This document shows positions 18,893-56,852 of a DNA stretch of 64,000 nt, piece after piece. Source of the DNA: Alternaria dauci (lineage: Eukaryota; Ascomycota; Dothideomycetes; Pleosporales; Pleosporaceae); contig NC_091277.1 of the NCBI RefSeq assembly GCF_042100115.1, forward strand, positions 2,170,001 through 2,234,000, given 5' to 3'. A model generated the notes under the pieces. It was not told the origin of the DNA, did not search any database, and saw only the letters and a list, made by a program, of their open reading frames with translations. Both the position numbers and the translations under genes were made by a program. Numbering within the stretch: the first letter of the stretch is position 1; each line of letters opens with the position of its first letter.

Positions 18893-19240
18893 AATTTTTT
18901 TATTTTCTATAATAGGGGGATATCATCAAAATAAAACTTCAAAAAAGTAAAAAGTAGCTATCCCTCTGCTTATTAGTTATAAAAGTTAATAAAAAAAGAT
19001 AAAGTAATAACGCGATTTAAACGCTAGACTAATTAGTATCTTAGGGTAGTAAAGCTCTAACGCTTTTATATAAAAACTAAAATTAAAAAGATTTACTAAA
19101 GGTAACTAAAAAAAAGACTATTAGATCTTTATAGGCCTAATAGGGATTACTAGCTATTATTAACTAGTAACGTAATTATAATATATTATAATAAGGAGTA
19201 AGGATATAGTATATTTACCATAACTAAGAAGTATTATATA
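18893..19240 (+). mobile_element. Family A repeat, 5' part (copy A02)
   Basis: Second family A 5' end directly after A01, followed by the conserved 5' region up to about the GGATATAGTAT motif, after which homology is lost. RIP-degraded. Confidence 0.75.
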
Positions 19241-20518: not shown

Positions 20519-21748
20519 TAAGCTTTAGCCTTTATAGACTTTTTTTTTATTATTATAATATATTTAGAGACTTTTTTAAGATAAAGTATTAACTAAGTAA
20601 CTTTAGGCTTATACCTATATTTAATATAGCTAGTATATATATAGTATATTATAAATACTAGATACTAAAGATATATAATAGTAGTAAGTTATATATAGAC
20701 TAGAGACTATAAGATATAACCTTCTAATATATATACTATCCTCTACTATCCTCTACTATCCTCTACTATCCTCTACTATCCTCTACTATCCTCTACTATT
20801 TCTACTCTTTATAACCTTTATAGCTACTCTTTATAACTACTACTACCTCTACTACTACTACCTCTACTACTACTACTACTACTACCTCTACTACCCCTTC
20901 TTAAGAATAACTAACTAACTACCTATAGTATAGCTACTACTATCTAATAATTAGCTTTAGTTAGAGGAATATTAGTATTAATACTATTTATACCTTATTC
21001 TCTTATCTTTATAGTATCTCTTTAAATTCCCTCTTCTTAAGCCTAAGATACTAGTCTTTAAGTACTCTTTTAATATTAATAGCTTAGTAGTATAGCTATC
21101 TCTTAGTCTCTTTACTCTACTTACTAAAGGTTAGGTAGGTAAGGTAGCTAAATATAAAGAGATTAATAAAGTAGTAGGTATTAATATAGATAATCTCCTT
21201 ATACTTTATAACTTTCTTTAGATACTATATTCTAGTCTACTTATAAGTTACCTTTATAATAATATTATTAACCCTAGACCTCTTAATAAGGTACTAGCTA
21301 ATAGATTTACTATTACTAAGGATTTAGAGTATTAGAGGTATTTACTCCTTTAGCTCCTTACTAACTACTAGATTTAGCTCTTAGGTATATATAGTAGTAG
21401 GGCTTATATTATTTATATTTAATAGATTAAGGGGCTCCTTACTAGAGAGGGTATACTAGCTTAGCTAGATAGCTATAATAAGTTACCTTAAGGGATATAT
21501 ATTTATATATAGTATAATTTAATTATATATAGTAAGATACTTAAAGTAAGTTTATATTAGTATAAAGGTTAGAAGTAGCTAGGTTTTTATATAACCCTTC
21601 TTAGTTATAGTAAATATACTATATCCTCTCTCCTTTTTATAATATATTATAATTATATTACTAGTTAATATTAGCTAGTAATCCCTATTATACCCTCCTA
21701 AGGTTTAATAAGTTTTTTATTTTAGTTTCCTTTAGTAAATTTATTTAA
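20519..21748 (-). mobile_element. Family A repeat, subtype 2, reversed (copy A03)
   Basis: Begins with the family A 3' terminus read in reverse (AGCTTTAGCCTTTATAGAC), contains a 10-bp minisatellite and the degraded subtype 2 ORF on the minus strand, and stops about 200 bases before the true 5' end, where copy A04 begins in the opposite orientation. Confidence 0.85.
20740..20801. repeat. 10-bp minisatellite (ACTATCCTCT)
   Basis: About six tandem ACTATCCTCT units. Shorter versions occur at the same place in most family A copies, just beyond the C-terminal end of the degraded ORF. Confidence 0.9.
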
Positions 21749-22146
21749 TTTTTAATTTTCTATAATTAGGGGGGTATAATTAAAATAAAACTTAAAAAAG
21801 TAAAAAGTAGCTATCCCTCTACTTATTAGATATAAACGTTAATAAAAAAGATAAAGTAATAATATAGTTTAAACGCTAGACTAATTAGTATTTTAGGGTA
21901 GTAAAGCTCTAATATTTATATATAAAAACTAAAGTTAAAAAGATTTACTTAAGGTAACTAAAAAGATACCTATAAAATCTTAGTAGGCCTAATAGGGATT
22001 ACTAGCTATTATTAACTAGTAATATAATTATAATATATTATAAAGGGGAGAGAGGATATAGTATATTTAAAATAACTAAGAGGAGGTTATATAAAAGCCT
22101 AGTTACTTCTAACCTTTATACTAATACTAACTTACTTTAGGTATCT

Positions 22147-22240: not shown

Positions 22241-22305
22241 ATATATATTTCCTCTTTATCCTTATCTAAGAGGTCTTCTAGCCTAGCCTAAAAACCTTAG
22301 CTAGA

Positions 22306-22317
22306 TAGGTACTAATT
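22306..22317 (+). repeat. 12-bp target-site duplication, left (TAGGTACTAATT)
   Basis: Identical to 23669-23680. Only one copy is present at this place in uninterrupted family A elements. Confidence 0.9.
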
Positions 22318-22711
22318 TATTCAAATGATAAACGTGCTGGTAAAAGACGCAAGCACAACACTGTTGAAAGACACTGTGATAAATCGCGGTAAAGGTGTGT
22401 TTCCCAAACACCTGGTTTCACTGTATGCAGCTGTATATATTCGACAATAGATGGGTTGAAGCCAAAGCCCTGAACTTCAGGCGGTTCTGGAAAGTCGCGG
22501 CGACGTTGGGGAGAAGAGGAGTTGAAGCAGAAGAGGAGTTTTTCGGTCGACAACCGTGGTTCGTGGCTCGCATCCAGTCTCGCGACCATGGTACTCGAGA
22601 ATGAAGAAATATTTGAGCAACTGCTGGCTCTTCAAATTTCCATTTCTCAACTTCCACTTCAACACTCCATCCCGAAGCTTACCACCAAAGAGAAACACCT
22701 TCTTCAACACC

Positions 22712-23203
22712 ATGCGCCTTGTGACGTGCGATCGCGTCATGGGCGTCGAGCGGCCATTCCTGGAGTTGCAGACGGCACTCAACGTCGACACCGACGCAGA
22801 CGCAAAGCACTGGTACACCAAGGATCAAATCAGCTTGAACTACGATGATCTCAAGCCTCATGGTGTCTTGAGCCCCTTCCTGGACGCCTGCCTCTCCTCT
22901 CTGAACTTGTCGGATGATACCACTGAGGACCAATATGAAATTCTCTTCCACACGGATGGCCCGTTTGCCGTGACTCTTGTTCGCCTGGGCAGCGTCGCTT
23001 TGCTGGCCAGCACCGGGATAAACACAGAAGCGAGGTCATCTGTTGCTGTAGAGCAGAACGTTCGCATCGAGAAGCTGAGTGACATGATAGCGGCTGGGGG
23101 CACGCTCACGATAGAGCAAGAGGCGTATGTCAAGATGGTCATGAGCGGGGACTACGATGGATGGCTGTGGTGGGTCCTCGGCCAGCTCATCCCCATCTTG
23201 TGA
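22712..23203 (+). CDS. Orphan protein of 163 residues carried by the insertion unit
   Basis: Single-exon ORF starting in a strong context (CAACACCATGCG) and ending TGATCG. The frame stays open upstream to 22556, but the ATG at 22712 has by far the best context and is preceded by a CA/CT-rich leader. The product begins MRLVTCDRVMGVERPFLEL, is acidic with Asp/Glu-rich parts (NVDTDADAKHWY, LSDDTTEDQYEILF), has a hydrophobic centre (VTLVRLGSVALLAS) and a tryptophan-rich end (YDGWLWWVLGQLIPIL). No signal peptide, membrane anchor, coiled coil or known catalytic motif is seen, and I do not recognise the family. Codon use resembles the genes of the left region, so it may be expressed. The homologous ORF in the second copy is destroyed (ATG turned to ATA and many stops). 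Confidence 0.7.
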   Translation: MRLVTCDRVMGVERPFLELQTALNVDTDADAKHWYTKDQISLNYDDLKPHGVLSPFLDACLSSLNLSDDTTEDQYEILFHTDGPFAVTLVRLGSVALLASTGINTEARSSVAVEQNVRIEKLSDMIAAGGTLTIEQEAYVKMVMSGDYDGWLWWVLGQLIPIL

Positions 23204-23349
23204 TCGTATCGAGTAGGTACGGCTGACGATCGATTCGACAACGACGATGATGACGCGGGAGGCTTAGGATACGGCACAATAGGACCTATTAGGTGCGTAG
23301 CGGCTGCGGAGGAGTTTAGGCGATAGTAATGTATAGGCTTTGTAGCCGC

Positions 23350-23420
23350 TTAAAGGGAATTGTAATTGTAATCGTAATTGTAATTGTAACTGTGACCGTG
23401 ACTGTGATCGTGATAGCGGC
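23350..23420. repeat. Hexanucleotide array TGTAAT/TGTGAC
   Basis: About ten degenerate 6-bp units (TTGTAATTGTAATCGTAATTG ... shifting to GTGACCG/GTGATCG) 150 bases after the orphan gene. The array is conserved, in RIP-mutated form, in the second copy of the unit. Confidence 0.85.
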
Positions 23421-23668
23421 GGTGCTTGCGCTCTTGAAATGTGATTGCTGCGATGCGATAGAGCTTAATCTCTAGGTAGTATTAGCAGTGATCGTGATAG
23501 TGGGGATGTTGAGGCGGTGCAGGGCGTGATGTGGGGGATAGACGGAGAGGTGTTGTGGGCAAAAAGAGACTTCCGGACACGCTAGGACAGTTCAGGCTTA
23601 GTTTCAAAATTTCTTGGCAACGCAATATGAGATGACACTGTAGGCCCCGTCCCTAAGGCCCAGAGGGG

Positions 23669-23680
23669 TAGGTACTAATT
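23669..23680 (+). repeat. 12-bp target-site duplication, right (TAGGTACTAATT)
   Basis: Exact match to 22306-22317 at the other edge of the island. Confidence 0.9.
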
Positions 23681-24546
23681 AATATATCTATAAGTACGTA
23701 ATATACTTACCTTATATATACTTAGGAGCTAAATCTAGTAGTTAGTAAAGAGCTAGAAGAGTAAATACCTCTAATACTCTAAATCCTTAGTAATAGTAAA
23801 TCTCTTAGCTAGTACCTTATTAAGAGGTCTAGGGTTAGTAATATTATTATAAAGGTAACCTATAAAGAGACTAGAATATAGTATCTAAAGAGGGTTATAA
23901 AGTATAAAGAGATTATCTACACTAATACCTACTACCTTATTAATCTCTTTATATTTAGCTACCTTAACTACCTAACCTTTAGTAGGTAAAGTAGAGAGAT
24001 AAAGAGATAGCTATACTACTAAGCTATTAATATTAAAAGGGCGCTTAAAGACTAGTATCCTAGACTTAAGAAGAGGGAACTTAAAGAGATACTATAAGGA
24101 TAAGAGAATAAGGTATAAATAGTATTAATACTAATATTCCTCTAACTAAAGCTAACTATTAGATAGTAGTAGCTATACTATAGGTAGCTAGTTAATTATT
24201 CTTAAGAAGGGGTAGTAGGGGTAGTAGAGGTAGTAGTAGTAGAGGTAGCGGTAGTTATAAAGGGTAGTTACAAAGGTTACGAAGGGCGGAAATAGTAGAG
24301 GATAGTAGAGGATAGTAGAGGACAGCGTATATATTAGAAGGTTACGTCTTATAGTCTTTAGTCTATATATAACTTACTACTATTATATATCTTTAGTGTC
24401 TAGCGTTTATAATACACTACGTACGTACTAGCTATACTAAATATAGGCTTATATAAGCCTATAGTTACCTAGTTAGCGCTTTATTTTAAAAAAGTCTCTA
24501 AACGTACTATAATAATAAAAAAAAAGTCTATAAAGGCTAAAGCTAA

Positions 24547-24721: not shown

Positions 24722-27030
24722 AACTTTAACTTTTATAATCCTTTTATTATTACTATAGTATATTTAGAGACTTTCTTAAGTTAAAGTACTAAGTTACTAT
24801 AAGCTTAAATTTATATTTAGTATTACTAGTATATATATAGTATACTATTAATACTAGATATAAAGATATATAATAGTATTATATAGTAAATATTAATTAA
24901 AAGATATAGCCTTCTATCTTATATACTATCTTTTATAATCTTCTACTATCCTTTACTATCCTTTACTATTTTTACTCTTTATAACCTTTATAGTTACCTT
25001 CTATAACTACTACTAATACCTCTACCCTTTCTTTAGAATAATTAACTAGCTAGATATAGTATAACTAATATTATTTAATAATTAGCTTAATTAGAGGTAT
25101 ATTAGAACTACTACTAACTATAGCTTATTCTTTTATTCTTATAGTATTTCTCTAAACTCCTTCTTTTAAAGCCTAAGATATTACTCCTCTAACGCCCTTT
25201 TAATATCTTTTATCTACTAGTGTAGCTAGTTCTTAGTTTTATAGCTAAAGGTACCTTATTTAAGAATAATAAGATAGCTAAATATAAAAAGCCTATAACT
25301 ATAGTAGCTATCTATATAAGCTATATATACTAGTTCTTCTACTTTCTTCTTTATCTATATCCTCCTCTACTTTATAACTACCTTTATAATAATATTACTA
25401 ATACTAAAGGTATTAACCTAAGAGGCCTTTCTATTCTAAAATAATAAGTAGAACTTATATAATTACTTATTTAACTTCTTAAAAACTACTTTAAGTAGCT
25501 CCTAAGAATATATAGAATAAGTATATTATATACTTATAGAAATATTAATTAGTACCTATTTAGTTAAGGTTTTTAGGCTAGGCTAAAAGACCTCCTAGAT
25601 AAGGATAATTTTTATTTTCTATAAGTATAGGGGTATTATTAAAATATAACTTAAAAAAAATAAAAAGTAACTATCCCTCTACTTATTAGTTATAAAAGTT
25701 AATAAAAAAGATAAAGTAATAATATAGTTTAAAAATAAGACTAATTAGTATTTTATAAGAGTAAAGCTCTAACGTCTATATATAAAAACTAAAGTTAAAT
25801 AAATTTATTAAAGGTAACTAAAAAAAGATATTTATTAAAGCTTAGGAGTATATAATAGTAATTAATAGTATTAGCTAGTAATATAATTATAATATATTAT
25901 AAAGGGAAAGAGAGGAGGATATAGTATCTTTACTATAATTAAGCTTACTTAGAATTTTATATATTTCTATAAAAGCTTAACTACTTCTTACCTTTATACT
26001 AATACTAATATATAAGCTTTAATACTATATATAATTATTTTATACTATGTATAATTACCTTATATATAAATACTATAGTAATCCTTAATATATTATACTA
26101 TAAGAATAATTATACCCTAGTAGGGGAGGTCCTACTTATACTATTTAGTAATATAAAAGATCTAAGTATTATATATATTAGTAAGCTACCCCTAAAAGTC
26201 TTCTAAGAGTTAGAGGAGCGTAAACCTAAGGTCCTTTAGTACTTTTACTATACTAAACCTAATAAGGACCTTATAAAAGAGACTAGGGTTAGCTTTATTA
26301 TAATAGAGGAGAGGGTAGAGGAGACTATAATAATAATCCTAAGGAGGAAGGGGTTTAAGTTAATATTTATTATATATACTAATACGCGTTACCTTATTAA
26401 GCTTATTAGGTATAGCTACTTAGCTATAGTAGCTTTAGGGGTTAGTAAGAAAACTAAAGAGTAGCTATACTAATAAATCCTAGATATTAATAAGGTAGTT
26501 AAGGAGAGGGATCTAGGTATTATAGAGAGAGAGTTTAAATATATACTATAAGGTAAGTAAAATAAGGTATAGATAACTATACTATTAGTATTCTTCTAGC
26601 TAAAGTTAATTATCTAGTAGTAATAGTATTATAGATAGTATTTAAATAAGGCTATAACTATAACTATAAAGATAGTAAAAGGAGGTTATAGTTAGTAGTA
26701 ATATAGATATTATAAGGAAGGGACGTAGTAAGGGTAGCTATAAAGGGTAGAAATAGTAAAGGATAGTATATAAGTTAGAAGGTTACGTCTTATAGTCTCT
26801 AGTCTATATATAATACTATTATATATCTTTAGTGTCTAGCATTTATAATACACTACGTACGTACTAGTAGTACTAAATATAGACTTATATAAGCCTATAG
26901 TTACCTAGTTAGCGCTTTATCTTAAAAAAAGTCTCTAAATATACTATAATAATAAAAAAAATCTATAAAGGCCGAAGCTAACTAGATAAGGATAAAGAAG
27001 AAATATATATATATATATATATTATAGAAT
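24722..27030 (-). mobile_element. Family A repeat, subtype 1, reversed, split by A06 (copy A05)
   Basis: Parts 24722-25608 and 26982 to about 27030. It is interrupted by copy A06 within CTAGATAAGGATAA, which is duplicated exactly on both sides. The remainder after the interruption is short and runs into gypsy-derived sequence. Confidence 0.8.
25609..26981 (+). mobile_element. Family A repeat, subtype 4, full length (copy A06)
   Basis: 1,373 bp from TTTTTATTTTCTATAAG to GGCCGAAGCTAA, flanked by a perfect 14-bp duplication CTAGATAAGGATAA (25595-25608 and 26982-26995). It carries a divergent version of the family ORF between about 26100 and 26700; nearly all in-frame stops are TAG/TAA, as expected for CAG/CAA codons hit by RIP. 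Confidence 0.9.
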
Positions 27031-28935: not shown

Positions 28936-30238
28936 TTTAGCCTTAGCCTTTATAGACTTTTTTTTTTATTATTATAGCACGTTTAGAGACTTTTTTTAGG
29001 ATAAAGCGCTAGCTAGGTAACCGCGGGCTTATACCTATATTTAGTACTACTAGTATATATATAGTATATTATAAATACTAGATACTAAAGATATATAATA
29101 GTATTATATACTTACTAGAGATAAGATATAACCTTCTAACTTATATACTATCCTCTACTACTATTTTTACTTTTTATAACTACTACCTAGTTCCTTCCTT
29201 AAGAATAACTACCTAGGGCTACTACTATACTTTTAACTTTAACTAGAGGAATATTAGTAGTAATACTATCTATACTATATTCTCTTATCTTTATAATATT
29301 TATTTAAATTCCCTCGCTTTAAGCCTAAGATATTAATCCTTTATTACTCTCTTAATATTAACTACTTACCTATATAGCTAGGACTAGGTTTCTTAGCTAA
29401 AGCCCCCTTAGTTTAGGAGAAAGATATAGCTGAATATAAAGAGCTTATAGCTATAGTACTTATTAACCTAAGCTATATACTTAAGTTCCCTAACTTTCTT
29501 CTACTATTTCTATATCCTCTTCTCCTTAATAGTCTCTTCTATAATAATCTTACTAATATAGAGGTTAATCTAATCTCTTTTAGATACTCAACTCTCTTAG
29601 AATATATAGTAAAACTTTAGGAATTACTTATTTAACGTATTATAAACTACCTTAGGCGGCTCTTAGGTATATATAAAGCTAGTATATTATATATTAGATA
29701 GATTAATTAGTACTTATCTAGTTAGGGTTTTTAGGCTATAATAAAAGACCTCTTAGAGGATAATATAAAGGAAATATATTATATACGTAGGTTTAAATAT
29801 AGTGTAAGTCTTATAAGAAGTCTTAAAGCTTATAAGTTAGTATTAGTATAAAGGTTAGAAGTATTTAGGCTTTATAGAAATATATAAAATTCTAGGTAAG
29901 CTTAATTATAGTAAATATACTATATCCTCTCTCCCCTTTATAATATATTTTAATTATATTACTAGTTAATAATAGCTAGTAATCCTTAATAGACCTCTAC
30001 TAAGGTTTCTAATAGGTATCCTTTTAGTTACCTTTAGTAAATTTTTTTTATCTTTAGTTTTTACGTATAGATATTAGAACTTTACTACTTTAAAACGCTA
30101 ATAAGTCTAGCGTTTAAATTATATTATTACTTTATCATTTTTATTTACTTTTATAACTAATAAGTAGAGGGATAGCTACTTTTTCCTTTTTTAAAGTTTT
30201 AATTTAATAACACCCCCCTACTTATAGAAAATAAAAAA
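28936..30238 (-). mobile_element. Family A repeat, subtype 3, reversed (copy A07)
   Basis: Both family A termini are present in reverse orientation. The flanks are unrelated gypsy fragments and no duplication is visible, so the copy probably sits at a recombination junction. Confidence 0.85.
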
Positions 30239-31698
30239 CTATTCTACTAGTATAGTCCCCTAATAATAAAATAATAAAGGTTCTTTAGATAATAGTAGCC
30301 TTACTCTAATAGCTAAGAAGCTAAGACCTAATAGTAGCTATATAACTCCTACTATACTTAGCTAAAATAGTTTTAGTCTTTAATAGTACTAATATTACTA
30401 TATTCTTAGAATACTTTAAAGATATATCTAAGTGCTATAGGTTTAGTAATAAAGGTATAGTTAATAAGCTCTTAGCCTACTATAAGTAGAAGTAGTAGAC
30501 TATTATCTAAGTTTCTAATACTTATAATATAGCTTAAGTAAATAAGTCTTAGAAAGACTTTAGAGAAGTGCTTAGGAGGTTATTTAGGAGTAATAACTAG
30601 AGCTAATAAGAAGTATAAGCTAAATACTTTAAATATTAGCTTCTTTAGTATTAAGTAAGGTCTAATCTAAATATTAAAGAATACTTATAAGAGTTCTAGA
30701 TCTATAGTAAGTGTTATATTAAAGCTATAACTATTAATAAAGAATACTAAAGTTTCTATCTAGTTAAGGGATTACTACTTAGATAGGTAACTAAAGTACT
30801 TAAGAGATTTAGCCTTAGAATTAATAGCCCTAAAGAGTTTAGCTATAAGAAGATTAGTAACTACCTAACTACTTACCTTAAAGTAGAAGAGGAAGCGTAT
30901 ATACTTAACCTATTAGAGGTAATTAAAAAAATTACCCTTAAGGTAGAGTTTACCCTACCTAAGTTAATAGCTATTTAGTATATACTTATAGTAAGCTATA
31001 ACCTACCTAATATCCTTATATAAATTTTCTAAGCCCTAAAGTTATCTATCCTAGTTAGGGAAGATAATTAATACTATTAACTAACTTAGTTACCCCTTAG
31101 AAAGGCCCCTACTAATATAGAAGTAGATAAGTTAGTTAATAAAATACTAAACCTAAGAATTAATTAGGCTAGCCTAGAACTTAAACCTTAGAAGCTATAA
31201 TAAATATCTTAAGAAATAGAGCTTATAAGTAACTTAAGTATTTATATAGAAGTAGAGTATAGAGTTAATAATATAGTAAACTAGAACTACTTAATAAATA
31301 GTTAGGAACCTAAAAAGCTATAGCTAGAGGGTTAGTACTAATCCTAATAGTATAGTAGATATTAATAGAAGGGTTATTAGACTTATAATAACTAATTATA
31401 TACTACTAATACCTAAGGTTACTAAAACTATAACTCTTAGTATAGTTAAGGTAAGAACTAAATATAGTCCTTTAATGTAGCTATAAACTACTAAGTATAT
31501 AATAAACCTAGTTACTATAAGAATAATTACCTTATACTATAAGTATTTATAGATAAAGGTTAAGTATACCTTAATAAGTAATCTATACTCTAGTAAGGAA
31601 TAGAAGAAAACTTATAAAGTAGAGTACTTAATCTTAGCTAATAGCTCTAGGCTAAGAATCTTTTAGCTTAGATTAAAAAGAGGTAGCTTAAATAAGAT

Positions 31699-31712: not shown

Positions 31713-33082
31713 TTAGCTTCGGCCTTTGCAGACTTTTTTTGTTGTTACAGCACGTTTAGAGACTTTTCTTAAGATAAAGCGCTAACTAGGTAACTGCGGG
31801 CTTATGTAAGCCTATATTTAGCACTACTAGTACGCACGTAGTGTGTCACAAACGCCGGACACTAAAGATATATAATAGTAGCGGTAGTTATGCGCCTACT
31901 AGAGATAAGACGCAACCTTCTAATATACACGCTATCCTCCGCTATCCTCTGCTATCCTCTACTATTTCCGCCCTTCGTAACCTTCGCAGCCGCCCTTCGT
32001 AACCGCTGCCGCCTCCGCTACCCCTTCTTAAGAATAACTAACTAGCTACCTATAGTATAGCTGCTACTGTCTGATAATTAGCTTTAGTTAGAGGAATGTT
32101 AGCACTAGCGCTATCTACGCCTTATTCTCTTGTCCCTATAGTATCTCTTTGAACTCCCTCTCCTTAAGCCTAGGATATCGCTCCTCTAACACTCTTTTAA
32201 TGTCCTTTATCTACTAGCGCAGCTAGTTCTTAGTTTCCTAGCTAAAGGCACCTTATTTAAGAATAACGAGGTAGCTAAACATAAGGAGCCTGCAGCCGTA
32301 GCGGCCGTCTATATAGGCTATGTATACTAGCTCCTCTACCTTCCTCCCTATCTACGTCCTCCTCTACCTAACAGCTACCTCTATAATAATATTACTAACA
32401 CTAGAGATATTAACCTAAGAGGCCTTTCTGTTCTAGAACAGGAAGCAGAACTTAGGTAATCGCTTATCCAACTCGTCGAGGACCGCTCTAGGCAGCTCCT
32501 AAGTGTATATAGGGTAGGTATATTACGTACTTATAGATATATCAATCAGCACACGTCTAGCTAGGGTTTTTGGGCTAGGCCAGAAGACCTCCCAGATGAG
32601 GATAAAGAGGAAATACATTATATACGCGACGGTTCGTATGCGAGGCGAGTCTTAAAAGTATTAAAGGTATTAAAGCTTATAAGTTAGTGTTAGTATGAAG
32701 GTCAGAAGCAGCTGGGCTTTTATGGAAACGTACAAAATTCCAGGTAAGCTCAATTATAGTAAAGATACTGTATCCTCCTCCCTTCGCAACACATTGCAAT
32801 TGTATCGCTAGCTAATGCTAGCAATCCCCGTTAGGCCTACTAAGGTTCGATAGGTGTCTTTTTGGTTGCCTTTAGCAAATTTTTTTAACTTTAGTTTTCG
32901 CGCACAGACGTCGGAGCTTTACCACCCTAAAACACCGATTGGTCCAGCGTTCGAATCGCGTTGTTACTTCATCTTTTTTTATCGACTTTTGTGACCGATA
33001 AGTAGAGGGATAGCTGCTTTTCACTTTTTTGAAGTTTTATTTTAATGATACCCCCCCACTTGCAGAAAACAAAAAATTAAAA
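31713..33082 (-). mobile_element. Family A repeat, subtype 1, least mutated copy (copy A08)
   Basis: 1,370 bp in reverse orientation, TTAGCTTCGGCCTTTGCAG ... TTGCAGAAAACAAAAAATT. CA and TG dinucleotides are still frequent (for example GCACGCACGTAGTGTGTCAC near 31830), unlike in all other copies, so this is the youngest or least exposed to RIP. The minus-strand ORF (about 32600 to 32000) still has TAG/TAA at likely Gln positions. Near 32947-32959 lies GCGTTCGAATCGC, resembling a pol III B box. Confidence 0.92.
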
Positions 33083-34685
33083 ATTAACCTACTAACTATT
33101 ATAGCACTATTTAAGGAAAAACCCCCTATAGTAATAGTAGAAAATAATATTATCTTAGTATAGCTAATCCCTAACTCTACTAGAAGCTTTTAAGAAGATA
33201 AAGTAGACTAATACTAGAAATTATCTAATATCTTTACTAAAGATAAGTTAGACTTTAAGCTATAGCTAACTACCTTTAGTAAATATAATAATAATATAGT
33301 TACTTCTACTATAATAATATATATAATAGTAGAATAGAAATCCTACTCTAGCTATAATAAGTCTAAAGTATAGAAACTAACGTAGAGAGCAATCCTGCGA
33401 AGACTAAGTAATAAGTATATTCTATACCTAAAAGGTTATAAGAGCTAATCTAAACACCTTTTAAGTAATAGGAATATTAATAAGGATAGGATAGTATAGT
33501 TTAAAGAAACTAACGACGCAATAGACTAGGACACTAACATTAATAACTATTAGAAAGAGGCGGCAGATAGTAAAAGAGATAATAATAACTAGTAACCGTA
33601 AAAGAAGAAGATTATAGATAAGTTAGAGCCTAATATATAATTAGTTATTAAGAGTATCCTAAATATAATAATACCTCTTTAAATTAATACCCTTCTAGGT
33701 AATATACTAAAGGTGTATAAAAGCCTATTTAATATAATTTATATATTAAAGGAGCTACACTTATTTAAAATTAACTTAATAGTTAAAAAGGACTATTAAA
33801 TATAAGACCTACCTAAGCGCTATTAAGGAAGTAATATTAATATACTCTACTTAGTAAATACTCCCCTTAACTACGTCTTAGTAGAATCTTAGGAAGGCTA
33901 GGTTATTAACTACTAAGGTATTAAAGTAGAGTACTAGGTAGACCTAGAGATTAACTATATCTAAGAAAATATCATTACTAGTACTAAGCCTAATAATATA
34001 GAAGAGGATAACTATAACTATTTAAAAGATAATTAAAAGCTATATAATAAGGTAATAGGTATTAAACACCTCTAATAAGACTACCTAAAAGTACTAATTA
34101 ATATCTAAAGTAATATATTTCTTATACTACTTAATTTAGGAGTAGAGCTTAATATAATTAAGAGAGAATTAGCTAAGAAAGCTATACTACTAATAACCTT
34201 ACTCCTAGGAAGTATAAGGGCTACCTAGATAGTTACTACTAATAATAGTATAGTAAACTTTATAAAGATTATCTAAGGAGTCCTTATTATTAAAGGATAA
34301 GTTAAAGTCTAAATAAACTTCTTTATAGTAAAAATCTATACTAATCTAATTATATTAGGGAATTTATTTTTAATAGACGCTTAGGTAATAATTAAGTATA
34401 TAACTAATAGGCTAATATACTATTATATTTTTAGTATTAATAAATAATATAATACTAAGTTTATATACGCTAGGAGTAATTAACTATCTAAACCTAACCT
34501 CTATACTAGACCTATCTTAGGAAAAGGAATAAGAGTATAGAGACTAGTACTCTACTCTATTAACTTACTAAAAGGCTAGAAAGTAAAGTATTATTTAGTA
34601 TAGTAGAGGTAATAGAAGTTAGAATAAACTTAGAAGAAGAGCTAAAAGGTAGTTAGCTAAGGATAAAATTTATAGGTAAGTAGGA

Positions 34686-36109
34686 TTTTTTATTTTCTAT
34701 AAGTAGGGGGGTATTATTAAAATAAAACTTTAAAAAAATAAAAAGTAGCTATCCCTCTACTTAGCAGTTATAAAAGTTAATAAAAAAGATAAAGTAATAA
34801 TATAATTTAAGCGCTAGACTAATTAGTATTTTAGGGTAGTAAAGCTCTAATGTCTATACGCAAAAACTAAAGTTAAAAAAATTTACTAAAGGTAACTAAA
34901 AAAGATACCTATTAGAAACCTTAGTAGAGGTCTAACAGGGATCACTAGTATTAGCTAGTAATATAATTATAATATATTATAAAGGGAGGAGGATATAGTA
35001 TCTTTACTATAATTAAGTTTACCTAGAATTTCATACGTTTCTATAAAAGCCTAGCTACTTTTAACCTTTATACTAATATTAACTTATAAGCTTTAATACC
35101 TTTAAGACTTTTAAGACTTACCTTATATATAAACTACTATATATATAATATATTTCCTCTATATTATCCTCTAGGAGGTCTTCTATTATAGCCTAAAAAC
35201 CTTAACTAGATAAGTACTAATTAATCTATCTAATATATAATATACTAGCCCTATATATACTTAAGGGCCGCCTAAGGTAGTCTATAATAAGTTAGATAAG
35301 TAATTACTAGAGTTCTACTATATATTCTAGGATAGTAGAGTATCTAAGAGGGATTAGATTAATACCTATATTAGTAATATTATTATAGAAGAGACTATTA
35401 AGGAGAGGAGGATATAGATATAGTAGAAAAAGGTTAGGGAGGTTAGGTGTAAGGCTTAGCTTAATAGGCGCTATAGCTATAAGCTCCTTATATTTAGCTA
35501 TATCTTTCTCCTTAACTAAGGGGGCTTTAGGTAAGAAACCTAGGCCTAGCTACGTAGGTAAGTAGTTAATATTTAATAAGTAATAAAGGATTAATATCCT
35601 TAGCTTAAGGAGAGGGAATTTAAATAGATATTATAAGGATATAAGAATATAGTGTAGAAAGTACTACTACTAACGTTCTTTTAGTTAAAGTTAAAAGTAT
35701 AGTAGTAGCCCTAAGTAGTTATTCTTATGATGGGGTAGTAGAGGTAGTAGTAGTAGAGGTAGTAGTAGTAGAGGTAGTAGTAGTAGAGGTAGTAGTAGTA
35801 GAGGTAGTAGTAGTTATAAAGGGTAGCTATAAAGGTTATAAAAGGTAGAAATAGTAAAGGATAGTAGAGGATAGTAGAAGATAGTAAGGGATAGTATATA
35901 AGTTAGAAGGTTACTATAAATTATCTTATCTTTAGTAGGTGTATAATACTATTATACATCTTTAGTGTCTAGCGTTTATAATATACTACGTATATACTAG
36001 TAGTACTAAATATAGGTATAAGCCTATAGTTACTTAGTTAGCGCTTTATCTTAAAAAAAGTTTCTAAATATACTATAATAATAAAAAAAGTCTATAAAGG
36101 CTAAGGCTA
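34686..36109 (+). mobile_element. Family A repeat, subtype 3, full length (copy A09)
   Basis: 1,424 bp with both termini in forward orientation. The ORF end is followed by a GTAGTAGTAGAG-type array (35740-35810). No clear duplication is visible at the edges. Confidence 0.87.
35733..35815. repeat. Tandem GTAGTAGTAGAG array inside A09
   Basis: Five to six units of the 15-bp motif GAGGTAGTAGTAGTA. Read in the ORF frame with RIP in mind this would be a Gln/Arg-rich C-terminal tract. Confidence 0.85.
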
Positions 36110-37567: not shown

Positions 37568-39009
37568 TTAGCTTTAGCCTTTATAGACTTTATTTATTAT
37601 TATAATACGTTTAGAGACTTTTTTTAAGATAAAGCGCTAACTAGGTAACTATAGGCTTATATAAGCTTATATTTAGTACTACTAGTATATATATAGTATA
37701 TTATAAATACTAGATACTAAAGATATATAAGAGTATATATATAAATAACTTAGAGTCTTTATAGTAGTTATACACCTACTAGAGATAAGACGGAACCTTC
37801 TAATATATATACTATCCTCTACTATTTTCTACTATTTCTGCCCTTTATAACTGCCGCCCCTTCTTAAGAATAACTAACTAGCTACCTATAGTATAGCTAC
37901 TACTATCTAATAATTAGCTTTAGTTAGAGGAATATTAGTACTAGCGCTATTTACGCCTAATCTCTTATCCCTATAGTATCTATTTAAATTCCCTCTCCTT
38001 ATGCCTAGGATGTTAATTATTAACTAGCCTCCTAACGTTACCTATTTACTATTATAGCTAGGTCTTAGTCTCTTAGCTTAATCCCTTTCCTAATACTAGA
38101 ATAGTAAGATAGCTAACTATAAGGACTTTACTACTACTAGTATTATTAATCTAGGCCTTATAGATAACCTCCTCTACGTCCTTTAGTATCTATATTCTAC
38201 TCTTCTTTACTATCTCCTCTACTTTAATATTACTAATATTAGAGGTATAGATAATATTAATATTATCTACTATCTTAGTCTATAAGACGTAGTAGAACTT
38301 AGGTAATTACTTATCTAACTTATTAAGGACTACTCTAGGCGGCTCCTAAGTATATATTAGGTAGGTATATTACGTACTTATAGATATATTAATTAGTACC
38401 TATTTAGCTAGGGTTTTTAGGCTAGGCTAGAAGACTTCCTAGATAAGGATAAAGAGGAAATATATATATTTATATATAGTGCGATTTAATTATATATAGT
38501 ACGATTTAATTATATATAGTACGATTTAATTATATATAGTATAATTTAATTATATATAATATAATTTAATTATATATAGCGCAATTTAATTATATATAGT
38601 AGAATACTTAAAGTTAGTATAAGTATAAAGGTTAGAAGTAGCTAGGCTTTTATAGAAACGTATAAAATTCTAGGTAAGCTTAATTATAGTAAAGATACTA
38701 TATCCTCCTCCCTTTATAATATATTATAATTATATTACTAGCTAATACTAGTAATCCCTATTAGGCCTACTAAGGTTTAATAGGTGTCTTTTTAGTTACC
38801 TTTAGTAAATTTTTTTAACTTTAGTTTTCGCGTATAGACGTTAGAGCTTTACTACCCTAAAACACTAATTAGGCTAGTGTTTAAATCGCGTTATTACTTT
38901 ATCTTTTTTTATTAACTTTTATAACTAATAAGTAGAGGGATAGTTACTTTTTACTTTTTTAAAGTTTTATTTTGAATAATACCCCCCTACTTATAGAAAA
39001 TAAGAAATT
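37568..39009 (-). mobile_element. Family A repeat, subtype 1, full length, nested (copy A12)
   Basis: 1,442 bp inserted in reverse into copy A11. The 14-bp duplication ATAATTAAGCTTAC is perfect (37554-37567 and 39010-39023). It holds a 20-bp satellite array at 38466-38600 (seven units of ATATATAGTACGATTTAATT). Confidence 0.93.
38466..38600. repeat. 20-bp satellite (ATATATAGTACGATTTAATT), seven units
   Basis: Near-perfect tandem array, the longest version of the array seen in family A. Variation is mostly CG to TA/CA, compatible with RIP. Confidence 0.92.
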
Positions 39010-40120
39010 ATAATTAAGCTTACCTAGAATTTTATACGTTTCTATAAAAACCTAGCTACTTCTAACCTTTATACTAATACTAATATACTTTAAGTATCCT
39101 ACTATATATAATTAAATTATACTCTATATAATTAAATTATACTATATATAATTAAATTATACTCTATATAATTAAATTATGCTATATATAATTAAATTAT
39201 ACTATACAGAAATATATATATTTCCTCTTTATCCTTATCTAGGAGGTCTTCTAGCCTAGCCTAAAAACCCTAGCTAGATAGGTACTAATTAATATATCTA
39301 TAAGTATATAATATACCTACCCTATATATACTTAGGAGCTACCTAGAGTAGTCCTTAATAAGTTAGATAAGTAATTACCTAAGTTCTACTACCTCTTATA
39401 GACTAAGATAGTAGATAATATTAATATTATTATAGAGGTAGCTATTAGGTAGAGGAGGATATAGATAGCGAGGAAGGTAGAGGAGCTAGTATATATAGCC
39501 TATATAGATAGCTACTATAGCTATAGGCTCCTTATATTTAGTTACTTTATTATTCTTAAATAAGGTACTTTAAGCTAAGAAAGTAAACACTAGCTACGCT
39601 AGTAGATAAAGGATATTAAAAGGGTATTAGAGGAGTAATATCCTAGGCTTAAGGAGAGGGAGTTTAAAGAGATACTATAAAGATAAGAGAATAAGGTATA
39701 AATAGCGCTAGTACTAATATTCTTCTAACTAAAGCTAATTATTAGATAGTAGTAGCTATACTATAGGTAGCTAGTTAGTTATTCTTAAGAAGAGGTAAAA
39801 GTAGTAGTAGTAGTTATAAAAGGTAGAAATAGTAAAGAATAGTAGAGGATAGTAGAAGATAGTAAAGGATAGTATATAAGTTAGAAGGTTACGTCTTATC
39901 TCTAGTAAGTGTATAATATTATTATATATCTTTAGTGTCTAGTATTTATAATATATTAAGTATATACTAGTAGTACTAAATATAAGTATAAGCCTATAGT
40001 TACCTATTTAGTACTTTATCTTAAAAAAAAGTCTCTAAATATACTATAATAATAAAGAAAGTCTATAAAGGCTAAGCCTAACTAAAGATATATAATAGTA
40101 GTAGGTTATATATAGACTAC

Positions 40121-41480
40121 TTAGCTTTAGCCTTTATAGACTTTTTTTTTTTTATTATTATAGTACGTTTAGAGACTTTTTTAAGATAAAGTACTAACTA
40201 GGTAACTATAGGCTTATATAAGCTTATATTTAATATAGCTAGTATATATATAGTATGTTATAAACGCTAGACACTAAAGATATATAATAGTAGTAAGTTA
40301 TACGCCTACTAGAGACGAGATATAACCTTCTAATATATATGCTATCTTCTACTATCCTCTACTATCCTCTACTATCCTTTACTATATCCGCCCTTTATAA
40401 CTACTACTACTGCCTCTACTACTACTACCTCTACCCCCTCCTAAGAATAACTAACTAGCTACCTATAGTATAGCTACTACTACTACTTAATAATTAGCTT
40501 TAGTTAGAGGAATATTAATAGTAGCGTAGCCTATACCTTATTCTCTTATCCTTATAGTATCTCTTTAAATTCCCTCTCTTTAAGCTTAGGATAACAGTCT
40601 TTAAGCGCTCTTTTAATATTAATAGCTTAGTAGTATAGCTATCTCTTAGTCTCCTTACTCTACTTACTAAAGGTTAGGTAGGTAAGGCAGCTAAATATAA
40701 GGAGATTAATAAGGTAGTAGATGTTAGTATAAATAATCTCCTTATACTTTATAACCCTCTTTAGATACTATATTCTAATCTACTTATAAGTTACCTCTAT
40801 AATAATATTACTAACCCTAGACCTCTTAATAAGGTACTAGCTAATAGATTTACTATTACTAAGGATTTAGAGTATTAGAGGTATTTACTCCTCTAGCTCC
40901 TTACTAACTACTAGATTTAGCTCTTAGGTATTTATAGTAGTAGGGCTTATATTATTTATATTTAATAAGTTAAGGGGCTCCTTACTAGATAGGGTATACT
41001 AGCCTAGCTAAATAGCTATAATAAGTTACCTTAAGGGATATATATATTTATATATAGTATAATTTAATTATATATAGTAAGATACTTAAAGTTAGTATTA
41101 GTATAAAGGTTAGAAGTAGCTAGGTTTTTATATAACCCTTCTTAGTTATAGTAAATATACTATATCCTCTCCTCCCTCCCTTTATAATATATTATAATTA
41201 TATTACTAGCTAATAGCTAGCGATCCCTATTAGGCCTACTAAAGTTTAATAGGTGTCTTTTTTTAGTTACCTTTAGTAAATATTTTTAACTTTAGTTTTC
41301 GCGTATAGATATTAGAGCTTTACTACTATAAAACGCTAATGAGTCCTATATTTAAACCGCGTTATTACTTTATTATTTTTATTAACTTTTACGACTAATA
41401 AGTAGAGTGATAGCTACTTTTTAATTTTTTTAAAGTTATATTTCAATAATACCCCTACACTTATAGAAAATAAAATATTA
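40121..41480 (-). mobile_element. Family A repeat, subtype 2, reversed (copy A13)
   Basis: Both termini present (TTAGCTTTAGCC ... ATAGAAAATAAAATATT). The ORF region closely matches A03 and the 3' part of A04 in reverse. Flanks are other family A fragments. Confidence 0.88.
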
Positions 41481-46279: not shown

Positions 46280-46291
46280 GAGTACTATCTC
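46280..46291 (+). repeat. 12-bp target-site duplication, left (GAGTACTATCTC)
   Basis: Identical to 47706-47717. Both flanks continue into gypsy pol sequence. Confidence 0.88.
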
Positions 46292-47705
46292 CCCCCCTAG
46301 GCCTTAGGGATAGGGCCTACAGTGTTATCTTATATTACGTTGCTAAGAAATTTTAAAACTAAGCCTAAACTATCCTAGCGTATTCAGAAGTCTCTTTTTA
46401 CCTATAATACCTCTCCGTCTATCCCCTATATTACGCCTAGCTGCACCGCCTTAACGTCCCTACTATTATAATTACTACTAACACTACCTAGAGATTAAGA
46501 AGCTTTATTATATTATAGTAATTATATTTTAAGAGCGTAAGCACCGCCACTATTATAATTATATTTATAGTTATAGTTATAATTATAATTATAATTATAA
46601 TTATAATTCCCTTTAAGTAGTTATAAAGCCTATATATTACTATCGCCTAAACTCCTCTATGGCTGCTACGCACCTAATAGGTCTTATTATACTATATCCT
46701 AAGCCTCCTACATTATTATTATAATTATTAAATTAATTATCTACTACCCTATTAATACCTACCCTACGCGCGTAATTATTAGCTATACCTACTTAATACA
46801 ATTATAAGATAGGGATAAGCTAGCTAAGGACCTACTATAGCTATCTATTATAGTCCCCGCTTATAACTATCTTAATATACGCTTCTTACTCTATTATAAG
46901 CGTGCCCCTAGCCACTATTATATTACTTAGCTTCTTAATATAAACGTTCTGCTCTATAGTAATAGATAACCTTACTTCTATATTTATCCTAGTACTAGCT
47001 AGTAAAGTAACACTACCTAGGTAAATAAGAGTTATAGTAAATAGGCTATCTATATAGAAGAGAATTTTATATTAGTCCTTAGTAGTATTATCTAATAAGT
47101 TAAGAGAGGAGAGGTAGGTATCTTAGAAGGGGCTTAAGATACTATAAGGCTTAAGATTATTATAGTTTAAGCTAATTTAATCCTTAGTATAGTAGTGCTT
47201 TACGTCTATATTAGTGTTAACGTTAAGTACTATCTATAACTCTAGGAAGAGCTACTTAACGCCTATAACGTAAATATATATTATAAGGCGTATAGTATTA
47301 AAGAAAGTATTTCTCTTTAGTAGTAAGCTTTAGGATAAAGTATTAAAGTAGAAGTTAAGAAATAGAAATTTAAAGAGCTAGTAGTTACTTAAATATTTCT
47401 ACAGCCTTAAGTACTATAGTTATAAGCCTAGAGGTGAGCTCTAAACTATAGTTATTAACTAAAAAACTCCTCTTCTACTTTAACTCCTCTTCTACTTTAA
47501 CTCCTCTTCTCCCTAACGTTACCGCGACTGTCTAGAACCACTTAAAGTTTAGGGCTTTAGTTTTAACCTATCTATTATTAAACTATATATAGCTATATAT
47601 AGTAAAAATAGGTGTTTAGGAAACACACCTTTACTATAATTTATTATAGTATCTTTTAATAGTGTTATACTTACGTCTTTTACTAGCACGTTTATTATTT
47701 AAATA
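46292..47705 (-). mobile_element. Gene-carrying insertion unit, RIP-mutated inverted copy
   Basis: 1,414 bp aligning end to end with the reverse complement of 22318-23668, from CCCCCCTAGGCC to TTTATTATTTAAATA. Differences are mostly C to T and G to A in CA/TG context, plus small indels: an extra GAGGAGTTAAAGTAGAA unit in the leader and about 40 extra bases after the ORF. It lies between the RT and RNase H parts of the gypsy element. Some CA/TG remain, so RIP is strong but less complete than in the surrounding DNA. Confidence 0.85.
46760..47300 (-). pseudogene. RIP-killed copy of the 163-residue orphan gene
   Basis: Reverse-complement alignment to 22712-23203. The start codon reads ATA, several Gln and Trp codons are TAG/TAA, and no long frame remains. 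Boundaries are approximate. Confidence 0.8.
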
Positions 47706-47717
47706 GAGTACTATCTC
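47706..47717 (+). repeat. 12-bp target-site duplication, right (GAGTACTATCTC)
   Basis: Exact match to 46280-46291, followed by the continuing RT sequence. Confidence 0.88.
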
Positions 47718-50435: not shown

Positions 50436-51528
50436 TTATAGTATAATATATTAATAATTACAATAGTATTTATATATAAGGTAGTTATATATAGTATAAT
50501 ATAATTATATATAGTATTAAAGCTTATAAAGTAGTATTAGTATAAAGGTTAGAAGTAGTTAGGCTATATAGAAATGTATAAAATTCTAGGTAAGCTTAAT
50601 TATAATAAAGATACTATATCCTCTTTTCCCTCCCTTTATAATATATTATAATAATATTACTAGCTAATACTAGTAATTACTATTATACCCTCCTTAGGAT
50701 TAATAGGTATCTTTTTTTATTTACCTTTAATAAATTTATTTAACTTTAGTTTTCGCGTATAAATAATAGAGCTTTACCCCTATAAAACGCTAATTAGTCT
50801 TATATTTTAACTATATTATTACTTTATCTTCTTTATTAACTTATATTACTAATAAGTAGAGGGATAGCTACTTTTTATTTTTTTAAAGTTATATTTTAAT
50901 AATACACCTATACTTATAGAAAATAAAAAAAAATTATAACTTCTACTAGAAGTAGTCTAGCTAGTACCTAGTCTAGAATAGCTTTAGTAGCTACTAGCTA
51001 GAGAAGTTTAGGGTAAAAGATAGAAAAGGTCCTACCTAGTAGTTAGTAAGCTTCTTAGAGTTCTATAGTATACTCTAATTAATAGTAGATATCTAAACTT
51101 TATTACTTAGACTATAGTATAGAACTATATATTATTTAGTATTTACTTAATTTAATTATTCTTAACTAGCCTATTAGAGCTATTCTTTAAAGTATATAAC
51201 TAAATCTAAGTATAAATTTATTATCTCTTTAGCGTAAACTACTTAATCCTTTACTAGTCTTAGTAGATTTACTTCTATATTCTTATATAGGTAAATACTA
51301 CTTCTTAGATAGTATCCTAAGTTAGTAAAGAATAGGATTATACTAGTACTAGTATTAATAGTATTATTAACTTAGAATTTAGCTATATAAAGTAAGGTAG
51401 CCTAGTTATCTTATATATTATTAAAAAACTGGTATAGGTAGGTTTTAAGAGACTAGTTAGTATATTCTATTTAGCTATCTATTTCGAGGTAATAGGTAGT
51501 AAATAAGATTTACTTTATCTAGAGGTAT

Positions 51529-52939
51529 TTAGCTTTAGCCTTTATAGACTTTTTTTTTATTATTATTATAGCACGTTTAGAGACTTTTTTAAGATAAAGC
51601 GCTAACTACGTAACCTTAGGCTTATACTTACGTTTAGTACTACTAGCACGTACGTAGTATATTATAACGCTAGATACTAAAGATATATAATAGTATTATA
51701 CGCCTACTAGAGATAAGACGTAACCTTCTAACTTATATACTATCCCCTACTATCTTCTACTATCCTCTACTATCCTTTACTATTTCCGCCCTTTATAACC
51801 TTTATAGCTACCCTTTAAAACTACTACCCCTATAAGTACTAGAAAGTTAATTACTATAATAAGAATATTATAGGTATCTAATAGCTATATAGTCCTAAGA
51901 ATAACTACTTAAGGCTACTACTATACTTTTAACTTTAACTAGAGGAATATTAATAGTAATACTATCTACGCTATATTCTTATATCCTTATAATATTTATT
52001 TAAATTCCCTCTCCTTAAGCTTAAGATATTAATCCTCTATTACCTATTAAATATTAACTACTTACCTACGTAGCTAGGCCTAGGTTTCCTACCTAAAGCC
52101 CCCCTAGTTAAGGAGAAAGATATAGCTAAATATAAAGAGCTTATAGCTATAGCACCTATTAAGCTAAGCTTTATACCTAACCTCCCTAACCTTCTTCTAC
52201 TATATCTATATCCTTATCTCCTTAATAGTCTCTTCTATAATAATATTACTAATATAGGTATTAATCTAATCCCTCTTAGATACTCTACTATCCTAGAATA
52301 TATAATAGAACTCTAGTAATTACTTATCTAACTTATTATAGACTACCTTAGGTAGCTCTTAGGTATATATAGGGCTAGTATATTATATATTAGATAGATT
52401 AATTAGTACTTATCTAGTTAGGGTTTTTAGGCTATAATAGAAGACCTCCTAGAGGATAATATAGAGGAAATATATTATATATATAGTAGTTTATATATAA
52501 GGTAAGTCTTAAAAGTCTTAAAGGTATTAAAGCTTATAAGTTAGTATTAGTATAAAGGTTAGAAGTAGCTAGGCTTTTATAGAAACGTATAAAATTCTAG
52601 GTAAGCTTAATTATAGTAAAGATACTATATCCTCCTCCCTTTGTAATATATTATAATTATATTACTAGCTAATACTAGTAATCCCTATTAGACCTCTACT
52701 AAGGTTTCTAATAGGTATCTTTTTTAGTTACCTTTAGTAAATTTTTTTAACTTTAGTTTTTATATATAGACGTTAGAGCTTTACTACTATAAAATACTAA
52801 TTAGTCTAGCGTTTAAATTATATTATTACTTTATCTTTTTTATTAACTTTTATAACTAATAAGTAGAGGGATAGCTACTTTTTACTTTTTTAAAGTTTTA
52901 TTTTAATAATACCCCCCCTACTTATAGAAAATAAAAAAT
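51529..52939 (-). mobile_element. Family A repeat, subtype 3, full length (copy A15)
   Basis: About 1.41 kb in reverse orientation within the integrase region of the second gypsy element. Flanked by TATCTAGAGGTATT (51516-51529) and TATCTAGAGGCGTT (52940-52953), a 13-14 bp duplication with two RIP-type differences. Confidence 0.9.
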
Positions 52940-55426: not shown

Positions 55427-56852
55427 TTTTTTTCTATAAGTAGGGGTATTATCAAAATAAAACTTTAAAAAAGTAAAAAGTAGCTATCCCTCTACTTATC
55501 AGTTATAAAAGTTGATAAAAAAGATAAAGTAATAACGCGATTTGAACGCTAGACTAATTAGCGTTTTATAGTAGTAAAGCTCTAACGTCTATATATAAAA
55601 ACTAAAGTTAAAAAAATTTACTAAAGGTAACTAAAAAAGACACCTATCGAACCTTATAAGGGTATAATAGGGATTACTAGTATTAGCTAGTAAAATAACT
55701 ATAATATATTATAAAGGGAGGAGAATATAGTATCTTTACTATAATTAACCTTACTAAGAATTTTATATATTTCTATTAAAGCTTAGCTACTTCTAACCTT
55801 TATTCTTATAATAACTTTTAAACTTTAAGACTTCCTTTAAAACTTCTTTTAAGACTTCCTTTAAGACTTATACTATATATAAACTTATATATATAATATA
55901 TTTCCTTTATATTATCCTCTAAGAGGTCTTTTATTATAGCCTAAAAACCCTAACTAGATAAGTACTAATTAATCTATCTAATATATATAAGGCGTTAAAT
56001 AAAAGTTAATATAAAGATTTATTAAAAGTTAAATATATAATATACTAGCCCTATTTATACCTAAGAGCTACCTAAGGTAGTTTATTATAGGTTAGATAAG
56101 TAATTACTAAAGTTTTACTATATATTCTAAGATAGTAGAGTATTTAAGAGGGATTAGATTAATACTTATATTAGTAATATTATTATAGAAGAGACTATTA
56201 AGGAGAGGAGGATATAGATATAGTAGAAGATAGTTAAAGAAATTAGGTATAAAGCTTAGCTTAATAGGCGCTATAGCTATAAGTTCCTTATATTAAGTTT
56301 TATCTTTCTCTTTAACTAAGAGGGCTTTAGGTAGGAAACCTAGGCCTAGCTATATAAGTAAGTAGTTAATATTAAATAAATAATAGAGGATTAATATCTT
56401 AGGCTTAAGGAGAGGAAATTTAAATAGATATTATAGAGATATAAGAATATAGCGTAGATAGTACTACTACTAACGTTCCTTTAGTTAAAGTAAAAAGTAT
56501 AGTAGTAGCCCTAAGTAGTTATTCTTAGGAAGGGGTAGTAGAGGTAGTAGTAGTAGAGGTAGGAGTAGTTATAAAGGGTAGCTATACAGGTTATAACAGG
56601 TAGAAATAGTAAAGGATAGTAGAGGATAGTAGAGGATAGCGTATATATTAGAAGTTTACGTCTTATTTCTAGTAGGCGTATAATACTACTATATATCTTT
56701 AGTATTTAGCGTTTATAATATACTATATATATACTAGTAGTACTAATTATAGGTATAAGCCTATAGTTACTTAGTTAGTGCTTTTTTTTAAAAAAAGTCT
56801 CTAAACGTACTATAATAATAATAAAAAAAAAGCCTATAAAGGCTAAGGCTAA
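55427..56852 (+). mobile_element. Family A repeat, subtype 3, full length (copy A16)
   Basis: 1,426 bp in forward orientation. Flanks CTATAGTAGTAAATT (55411-55425) and CTAGAGTAGTATATT (56853-56867) match at 13 of 15 positions, probably an aged duplication. Splits the second gypsy element. Confidence 0.85.

Follow-up and report, generated by a model that had tools for sequence, protein, structure and literature searches.

A mobile unit of Alternaria dauci read as the probable retrocopy of a spliced RNA from an intron-dense master gene beside LINE-type genes

What is the 1.35-kb unit that occupies positions 22318 to 23668 of the window, i.e. of the 64,000-nucleotide stretch of Alternaria dauci DNA analysed here, and how did it reach its site? 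An earlier note had described it as a discrete, gene-carrying mobile unit, possibly moved by retroposition or by an undescribed mechanism. We propose, with a probability of roughly 0.88, that the unit is the integrated cDNA of a spliced RNA of about 1.35 kb, made from an intron-dense and stationary master that lies beside LINE-type genes, and that this system is present twice in the genome.

The insertion itself can be read from the window. The unit is a minus-strand copy of 1351 nt of what we call the family 1 RNA, with the RNA 5′ end CCCCTCTGGG at 23668 and the 3′ end CATTTGAATA at 22318. The duplication TAGGTACTAATT is perfect on both flanks (22306..22317 and 23669..23680). A single, pre-insertion copy of it stands at 38391..38402 in an uninterrupted repeat, where the left flank matches 38558-38388 and the right flank 38402-38342, so that the two flank alignments overlap by one copy of the duplication. 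A second copy at 46292..47705, on the plus strand, is bounded by its own 12-bp duplication GAGTACTATCTC (46280..46291 and 47706..47717), and its two ends both align with those of the first (73.8% over 920 columns and 80.2% over 434 columns). It is an old, RIP-mutated copy, with C>T or G>A changes making up 329 of its 359 mismatches to the source, and is adjoined by a decayed RVT_1 match at 47763-48212. We found no inverted repeat between the ends of the 22318 unit and no poly(A) at the 3′ ends of family 1 copies, where CATTTGAATA passes directly into the flank. No enzyme is encoded inside the unit, ARAGORN predicts no tRNA gene in the 64-kb window, and a search for known RNA families or ribozymes gave no Rfam match. 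The insertion at two unrelated sites, the shared ends, the readable empty site and the lack of terminal inverted repeats and of poly(A) are thus all as the earlier note had them.

A search of the whole genome (34.9 Mb on 10 contigs) returned at least 58 family 1 matches, with 40 of 227 candidates scored. At least seven of these are full-length copies at 96-100%, the 22318 unit included, and there are many old copies besides. The seven recent copies start with TATTCAAATG (in one case AATTCAAATG) and end on the same bases, AGAGGG(G), each has a duplication in its flank, and the flanks differ in most of them, which upholds the claim of a discrete mobile unit. Two recent copies, L010 (C2:195136) and L012 (C1:2113329), occupy the same position of one repeat with slightly different duplications; this is either one target used twice or a duplicated segment.

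We compared 35 family 1 insertions. Exact duplications of at least 8 nt are found in 24 of them, against 0.6% of 2038 shuffled pairings. The median length over all 35 is 12 nt and most copies have a duplication of about 9-15 bp, a length of which up to 3 nt may be the element-terminal ATA held in common with the target. Twelve of the 24 duplications begin with this ATA, which is also how the family 1 RNA ends, as though the end of the RNA paired with the target. The 11 insertions without a duplication of this length (L021, L022, L025, L029, L030, L031, L032, L034, L035, L074 and L076) include five of the six 5′-truncated copies in the comparison. These duplications vary in length, unlike those of a DNA transposon with terminal inverted repeats or a MITE.

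The key to the origin of the unit lies on contig C3. At C3:2815990-2818211 the genome search gave a match broken into 13 collinear blocks, which splice alignment resolved into 18 short exons and 17 introns of 44-60 bp. This is the only intron-bearing family 1 locus among the matches scored, and the whole of the 22318 unit is contained in its exons, except for a short stretch in exon 16. The donors are GT (one GC) and the acceptors AG, mostly with CTRAY branch sites. All 17 introns lie on the RNA strand, and the RNA is therefore read as running on the minus strand of the window. A gene with introns on the plus strand was tried and rejected, as forcing GT-AG there gave ragged exons and the opposite strand fitted. 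Together with the 17 introns of a second family, treated below, 33 of 34 fit GT/GC...AG on the RNA strand as coded and none of 34 on the other strand; CTRAY motifs are present in 24 of the 34, compared with 13% of shuffled introns. The aligner accepted only GT/GC...AG jumps, but its break points have no more than 3 nt of play and unconstrained BLAST gave similar blocks. The exception is intron 15 of family 1 (38 nt in the first model), for which a 2-nt shift, seen by eye, gives a fitting intron of 52 nt; the isoform and intron-motif analyses used the placement 2 nt off. The source has a normal composition (TpA/ApT of 0.64, against 1.55-2.18 in 21 old, AT-rich copies), no target duplication by eye, and no long sense ORF in its RNA of about 1.35 kb.

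How do the copies relate to this gene? We aligned 29 of them to it, one per locus, using a RIP-tolerant aligner that jumps only between known exon borders. In this set 21 copies are full length with both ends in common, a count that leaves out L036 with its large internal deletion. All 17 introns are gone in 12 of the 29, including all seven recent copies; the others are truncated, have an extra exonic stretch near the junction of exons 8 and 9, or retain introns. Retention is seen in three old copies (introns 2 and 3 in L023, intron 13 in L028 and intron 16 in L024), and 43 of the 45 mismatches in these introns are RIP-type. At intron borders the recent copies differ by slips of 3-6 nt, which is what alternative acceptors would produce, and small slips are found at the junctions of introns 3, 4, 6, 7, 8, 14 and 15. 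Spliced RNA has been turned into DNA at new sites, with duplications, and the earlier preference for retroposition over a DNA transposon is borne out by the intron loss and by the variable duplications.

Two further candidates for splicing variants were rejected. Retention of intron 8 had been suspected in ten old copies, and the three inspected hold the extra exonic stretch, not an intron. The short copy L036 (C8:1705764-1706016) joins early exons directly to last exons and has a duplication of 14-16 bp; exon skipping was considered for it, and the junction looks like microhomology rather than a splice site. A short copy of the second family with the same kind of join, at C8:151762-152244, is known from the match table alone.

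That said, the present C3 gene is not, to the letter, the parent of the copies, because a stretch of 14-17 nt in exon 16 that it lacks is present in 26 of the 29 aligned copies, and because its exons 1, 3-8 and 15-16 differ from those of every recent copy. RNA positions 449-1004 are identical in the source and the seven recent copies. Variation among family 1 copies runs exon by exon: exons 2, 9-13 and 17 have one form and the other exons two to five, in reshuffled combinations that call for recombination, for several parents or for mutations that recur.

Which enzyme would have copied the RNA? An open frame of 1102 aa (C3:2810836-2814141; ORF2) lies upstream of the source, on its strand and 1.8 kb from the RNA start. 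It contains Exo_endo_phos_2 (PF14529) and RVT_1 (PF00078) domains, and its best solved relatives are LINE-1 ORF2p (5.7e-20) and R2 (2.9e-17). The frame meets an in-frame TAG at C3:2814142, over which no intron could be placed; 111 more codons follow, then by eye an intron and a last piece that ends about 1.2 kb before the RNA start. A gag-like ORF1 of 617 aa, about 860 bp upstream of ORF2 and facing away from it, contains a CCHC knuckle (Pfam zf-CCHC, E 0.0018, below the cut-off of that model). A relative of ORF2 annotated in Alternaria burnsii shares 84% identity with it over 657 residues. A DNA search of the genome, which can miss heavily mutated copies, found no further copy of ORF2, of ORF1 or of the sequence immediately before the RNA start, and no 3′ tail common to the RNA and the enzyme gene was found. 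The moved products found are spliced RNA only. The earlier description of the unit as an autonomous carrier of its gene has to be given up: it is a processed copy of a spliced RNA from the opposite strand, whose source and LINE-type enzyme gene lie elsewhere, at the master loci. The genome holds 112 RVT_1 matches, of which 26 have an equal top score; the one top-score match that was scanned, a 958-aa frame piece, is LTR-type and has domains for protease, RNase H and integrase. Two of the 112 were examined as LINE-type, and these are the ones beside the two RNA genes. The adjacent ORF2 is most likely the enzyme for the RNA, an assignment made by position and type of duplication.

The same layout is found a second time, far away on the same contig. 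Here an RT match at C3:3101913-3102707 (minus strand) belongs to a gene with EN (PF14529) and RT (PF00078) domains and probable introns between and within them. Another 17-intron RNA gene, at C3:3098271-3100698, begins about 60 bp after the RT stop, on the strand of the enzyme, and an ORF1-like frame lies on the opposite strand. The second part of this frame was scanned and has no Pfam match; its two parts match the ORF1 of the first locus weakly (E 0.001 and 0.017). The RT parts of the two loci are 39.7% identical (E 1e-76), and their RNAs have at most 11 nt in common. Introns 3, 4 and 5 of the second RNA gene (L078) have common stretches of 35 nt at 83-86% identity, as introner-like elements would.

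The second RNA gene also has many spliced copies. In one of them, C1:1710200-1711535, 17 of 17 introns are absent, 1306 of 1336 positions are identical to the source without gaps, and the duplication measures 9-13 bp; 26 of its 30 differences from the source fall within RNA positions 719-871. A search with this copy gave at least 94 matches (40 of 203 candidates scored), of which at least 12, itself included, are full length and contiguous with the spliced query. In the window family 2 has 13 copies, eight of them full length. Three of the full-length copies lack 17 of 17 introns, 28940..30242, 31716..33079 (with the fewest RIP-type changes of the eight) and 40124..41480, all on the plus strand. 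Two retain an intron, 51532..52942 (+) intron 6 and 55423..56849 (-) intron 10. The others are 34680..36107 (-), 59320..60674 (-) and 37571..39012 (+), which holds the empty site of the 22318 insertion. The incomplete copies comprise 5′ parts at 23672..24543 (-) and 26271..26978 (-), 3′ parts at 18896..19228 (-, exons 14-18 joined) and 50479..50938 (+, exons 12-18 joined), and a partial copy at 20522..21760 (+). The copy at 23672..24543 forms, with 21748-22317, a single copy split by the 22318 unit. The earlier note was right that the unit had inserted into a repeat, which it called family A; that repeat is itself a retrocopy, of this second system.

From duplications of the LINE type and from the enzyme gene adjacent to each RNA gene, we infer that the spliced RNA is copied by target-primed reverse transcription, in which the endonuclease and reverse transcriptase of the ORF2 upstream on the same strand would nick the target and prime synthesis. 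The protein of the divergently oriented, gag-like ORF1 may assist. The second locus, with its ORF1-like frame, ORF2 and 17-intron RNA gene, made the other repeat family of the window.

A more modest account is that these are ordinary processed retropseudogenes: an intron-rich long non-coding RNA is mobilised in trans by any LINE enzyme, and the neighbouring RT gene, the antisense ORF discussed below and the escape from RIP are incidental. Each step would be known LINE biology, and the non-coding RNA WEIRD of Magnaporthe is described as retroposed by a LINE with duplications of 10-20 bp in the sections of PMC2104539 drawn on here. The family 1 RNA lacks a long sense ORF and 5′-truncated copies exist, as this account would have it. 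Against it, two far-apart loci repeat one arrangement: an ORF1-like frame, then ORF2, then a 17-intron RNA gene on the strand of the enzyme. Both repeat families examined derive from just these two RNAs, copies with both ends predominate, and the enzyme genes have left no copies that we could find. We consider it possible, if rather doubtful.

Could the introns instead be late arrivals? An intronless mobile element would then have come first, and introner-type insertions would have filled the minus strand of its C3 copy. Dothideomycetes do have introner-like elements (PMC4457414, as far as the portion cited goes), a figure legend on them names Alternaria brassicicola, and introns 3-5 of the second locus are alike. 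Leaving these three aside, however, BLAST among all 34 introns yielded no more than two matches, 15 and 23 nt long. Introns, one or two at a time, are found in old copies and not in young ones, which is the wrong order for stepwise gain, the slips at acceptors look like alternative splicing, and the C3 locus lacks a target duplication. An intronless ancestor that gained introns cannot easily yield both retained introns and border slips, and we regard late gain as quite improbable. A non-autonomous DNA element or a segmental duplication, alike by chance at two sites, would suit the absence of poly(A) and of an internal enzyme and the common flanks of L010 and L012, yet is very improbable in view of exact intron loss at 17 places, an intron-bearing source, constant ends in differing flanks, duplications of variable length and the lack of terminal inverted repeats.

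Under the reading that we prefer, of spliced RNA copied from a master beside LINE-type genes, parts of the RNA may also move. The last exon of the 22318 unit (exon 18, 121 nt, 22318..22438 on the minus strand) is found alone as a separate insertion of 117-121 nt at seven examined sites (L071-L077, at C7:63482, C6:1706687, C1:3913781, C4:2339779, C4:280239, C6:236513 and C3:466811), five of which have a duplication of 11-14 nt. These insertions are 93-100% identical, lie in DNA of 43-49% G+C and start at the splice acceptor or within 3 nt of it; the last exon thus resembles a SINE-like unit that begins at a 3′ splice site. One more such insertion is present at C6:1868526. A structured 3′ exon was considered and rejected, as the 121 nt fold no better than shuffles (z +0.66). 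In a subtelomeric setting a spliced fragment of the 3′ end of the family 1 RNA, at 91%, stands behind a frame of 1462 aa (L041:3932-8320) with CCHC knuckles and AAA_11/AAA_12 domains, which was scanned in L041 alone. The same fragment occurs near the contig ends of C1-C6, and the unit with the frame recurs about every 25 kb on C1.

The introns may also matter for the fate of the master. Source and recent copy match exactly over at most 176 bp in family 1 and 171 bp in family 2, whereas three pairs of copies that were measured match exactly over 621-961 bp. In Neurospora, RIP between close repeats can just be triggered by an identity of 155 bp and is substantial at 220 bp (PMC4858203, in the part consulted for these values). 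The 176 bp found here are above the first of these lengths and below the second. The longest of 18 exons, 176 nt, is only slightly shorter than random cuts would make it (P 0.06 per family); with a minimum exon of 25 nt the same test gives P of about 0.35. We infer that the introns may let the master escape the RIP by which its copies are destroyed, because with them no uninterrupted piece of homology between master and copies exceeds 176 bp.

What then of the gene that the unit was said to carry? The 163-codon ORF is there, at 22712..23203 on the plus strand, and it is antisense to the mobile RNA. In the source it is interrupted by introns 9-12, with no antisense piece longer than 98 codons; it is contiguous only in retrocopies, and its sequence is the same in all seven recent copies as in the source once the exons are joined. 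Its codon use agrees with that of three frames of this genome taken as reference (z 3.6 and 5.3), although the in-register sense frame, which has a stop, scores nearly as well. Markov sequences of its length stay open in 13 of 4000 cases, a single-frame figure. Among the seven recent copies variable columns number 0 of 495 inside the ORF and 63 of 883 outside it (p 4e-13). Fourteen older full-length copies have one distinct indel inside (6 nt, in frame) and 48 outside, where some are one event placed a base apart. The recent copies have no synonymous change inside the ORF either, and protein-level selection alone therefore does not explain its constancy. In the old copies non-RIP changes are equally frequent inside (49 of 489 sites) and outside (87 of 834), the pattern that decay following insertion would leave. 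The predicted protein has no homologue at E 0.001 among 124 candidates, and no Pfam domain.

Family 2 has an antisense frame of 274 codons, a length at which 1 of 4000 Markov sequences stays open. Its protein has no homologue at E 1 among 56 candidates and one Pfam match far below the cut-off (E 0.07). A conserved ORF was rejected here: in the eight full-length window copies and the C1 copy, non-RIP variable sites make up 150 of 504 within the frame and a smaller share, 128 of 832, beyond it. Frameshifts occur as well, and the excess at third codon positions is slight (61, compared with 47 and 42 at the other two). Homology between the two antisense proteins is suggestive only (BLASTP E 0.4-0.6; shuffle p 0.035 local and 0.001 global). 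With no homologue, with changes equal inside and outside in the old copies and with the more variable frame of family 2, a real gene is plausible for family 1 only, where its function is putative. A stationary, RIP-proof master might then hold an antisense protein gene split by sense introns, its spliced RNA would be copied by the enzymes, and only fresh copies would be readable until RIP reaches them; we put this forward tentatively, and think it more probably wrong than right.

How does the system compare with those already described? SINEs are non-autonomous RNAs moved in trans by the enzyme of a partner LINE; they go back to tRNA, 7SL or 5S RNA and have a Pol III promoter. The family 1 RNA is likewise non-autonomous and probably moved in trans, and its last exon alone behaves in a SINE-like way; it differs in having no tRNA gene in the window, no Rfam match, a length of 1.35 kb and an intron-bearing source. 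The retrotransposition-indicator genes mHIS3AI and mneoI carry an antisense ORF broken by sense introns, whose pieces are joined only once the RNA has been spliced, reverse transcribed and integrated. Introns 9-12 of the family 1 source likewise break an antisense ORF that is contiguous in the seven copies; here the arrangement is natural, with 17 introns overall, four of them within the ORF, and expression of the ORF is putative.

The closest fungal likeness is WEIRD/MINE of Magnaporthe, a non-coding RNA of 1113 nt copied by a LINE enzyme (the passages of PMC2104539 cited above). Its authors report there that the source gene was not found, and its copies are fused to 3′ parts of LINEs or SINEs by template switching; here no LINE part is attached, and the source gene has been found, with 17 introns and beside enzyme genes, twice. 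Human L1 SpIREs are also spliced LINE RNAs that were reverse transcribed and integrated. They are described as generally dead ends with reduced promoter activity (PMC5860796, in the portion used), whereas here the RNA from which 17 introns are removed is the only mobile product found. The protection of intron-bearing DNA from a genome defence recalls the HUSH silencing of intronless DNA, a human and transcription-based system in the extract of PMC8770142 relied on; the defence here would be homology-based RIP. The copying process is thus of a known kind. The open-licence literature searched showed neither retrocopies with an intron-dense gene as the source of their RNA nor an antisense indicator gene occurring in nature; the architecture of the master locus and the antisense arrangement are absent from it.

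A spliced source would explain why repeats such as WEIRD can be reported without a source gene, which splicing would hide from view. The persistence of retroelements under RIP is an open problem, as duplicates are mutated and yet copies of very different age are present here. A split system, with enzyme genes that are not duplicated and a template cut too short for RIP, would directly answer it. If the antisense ORF is expressed, it would be a gene assembled by splicing and reverse transcription, and if our tentative account of it is true, this genome would express a protein only from its own fresh retrocopies.
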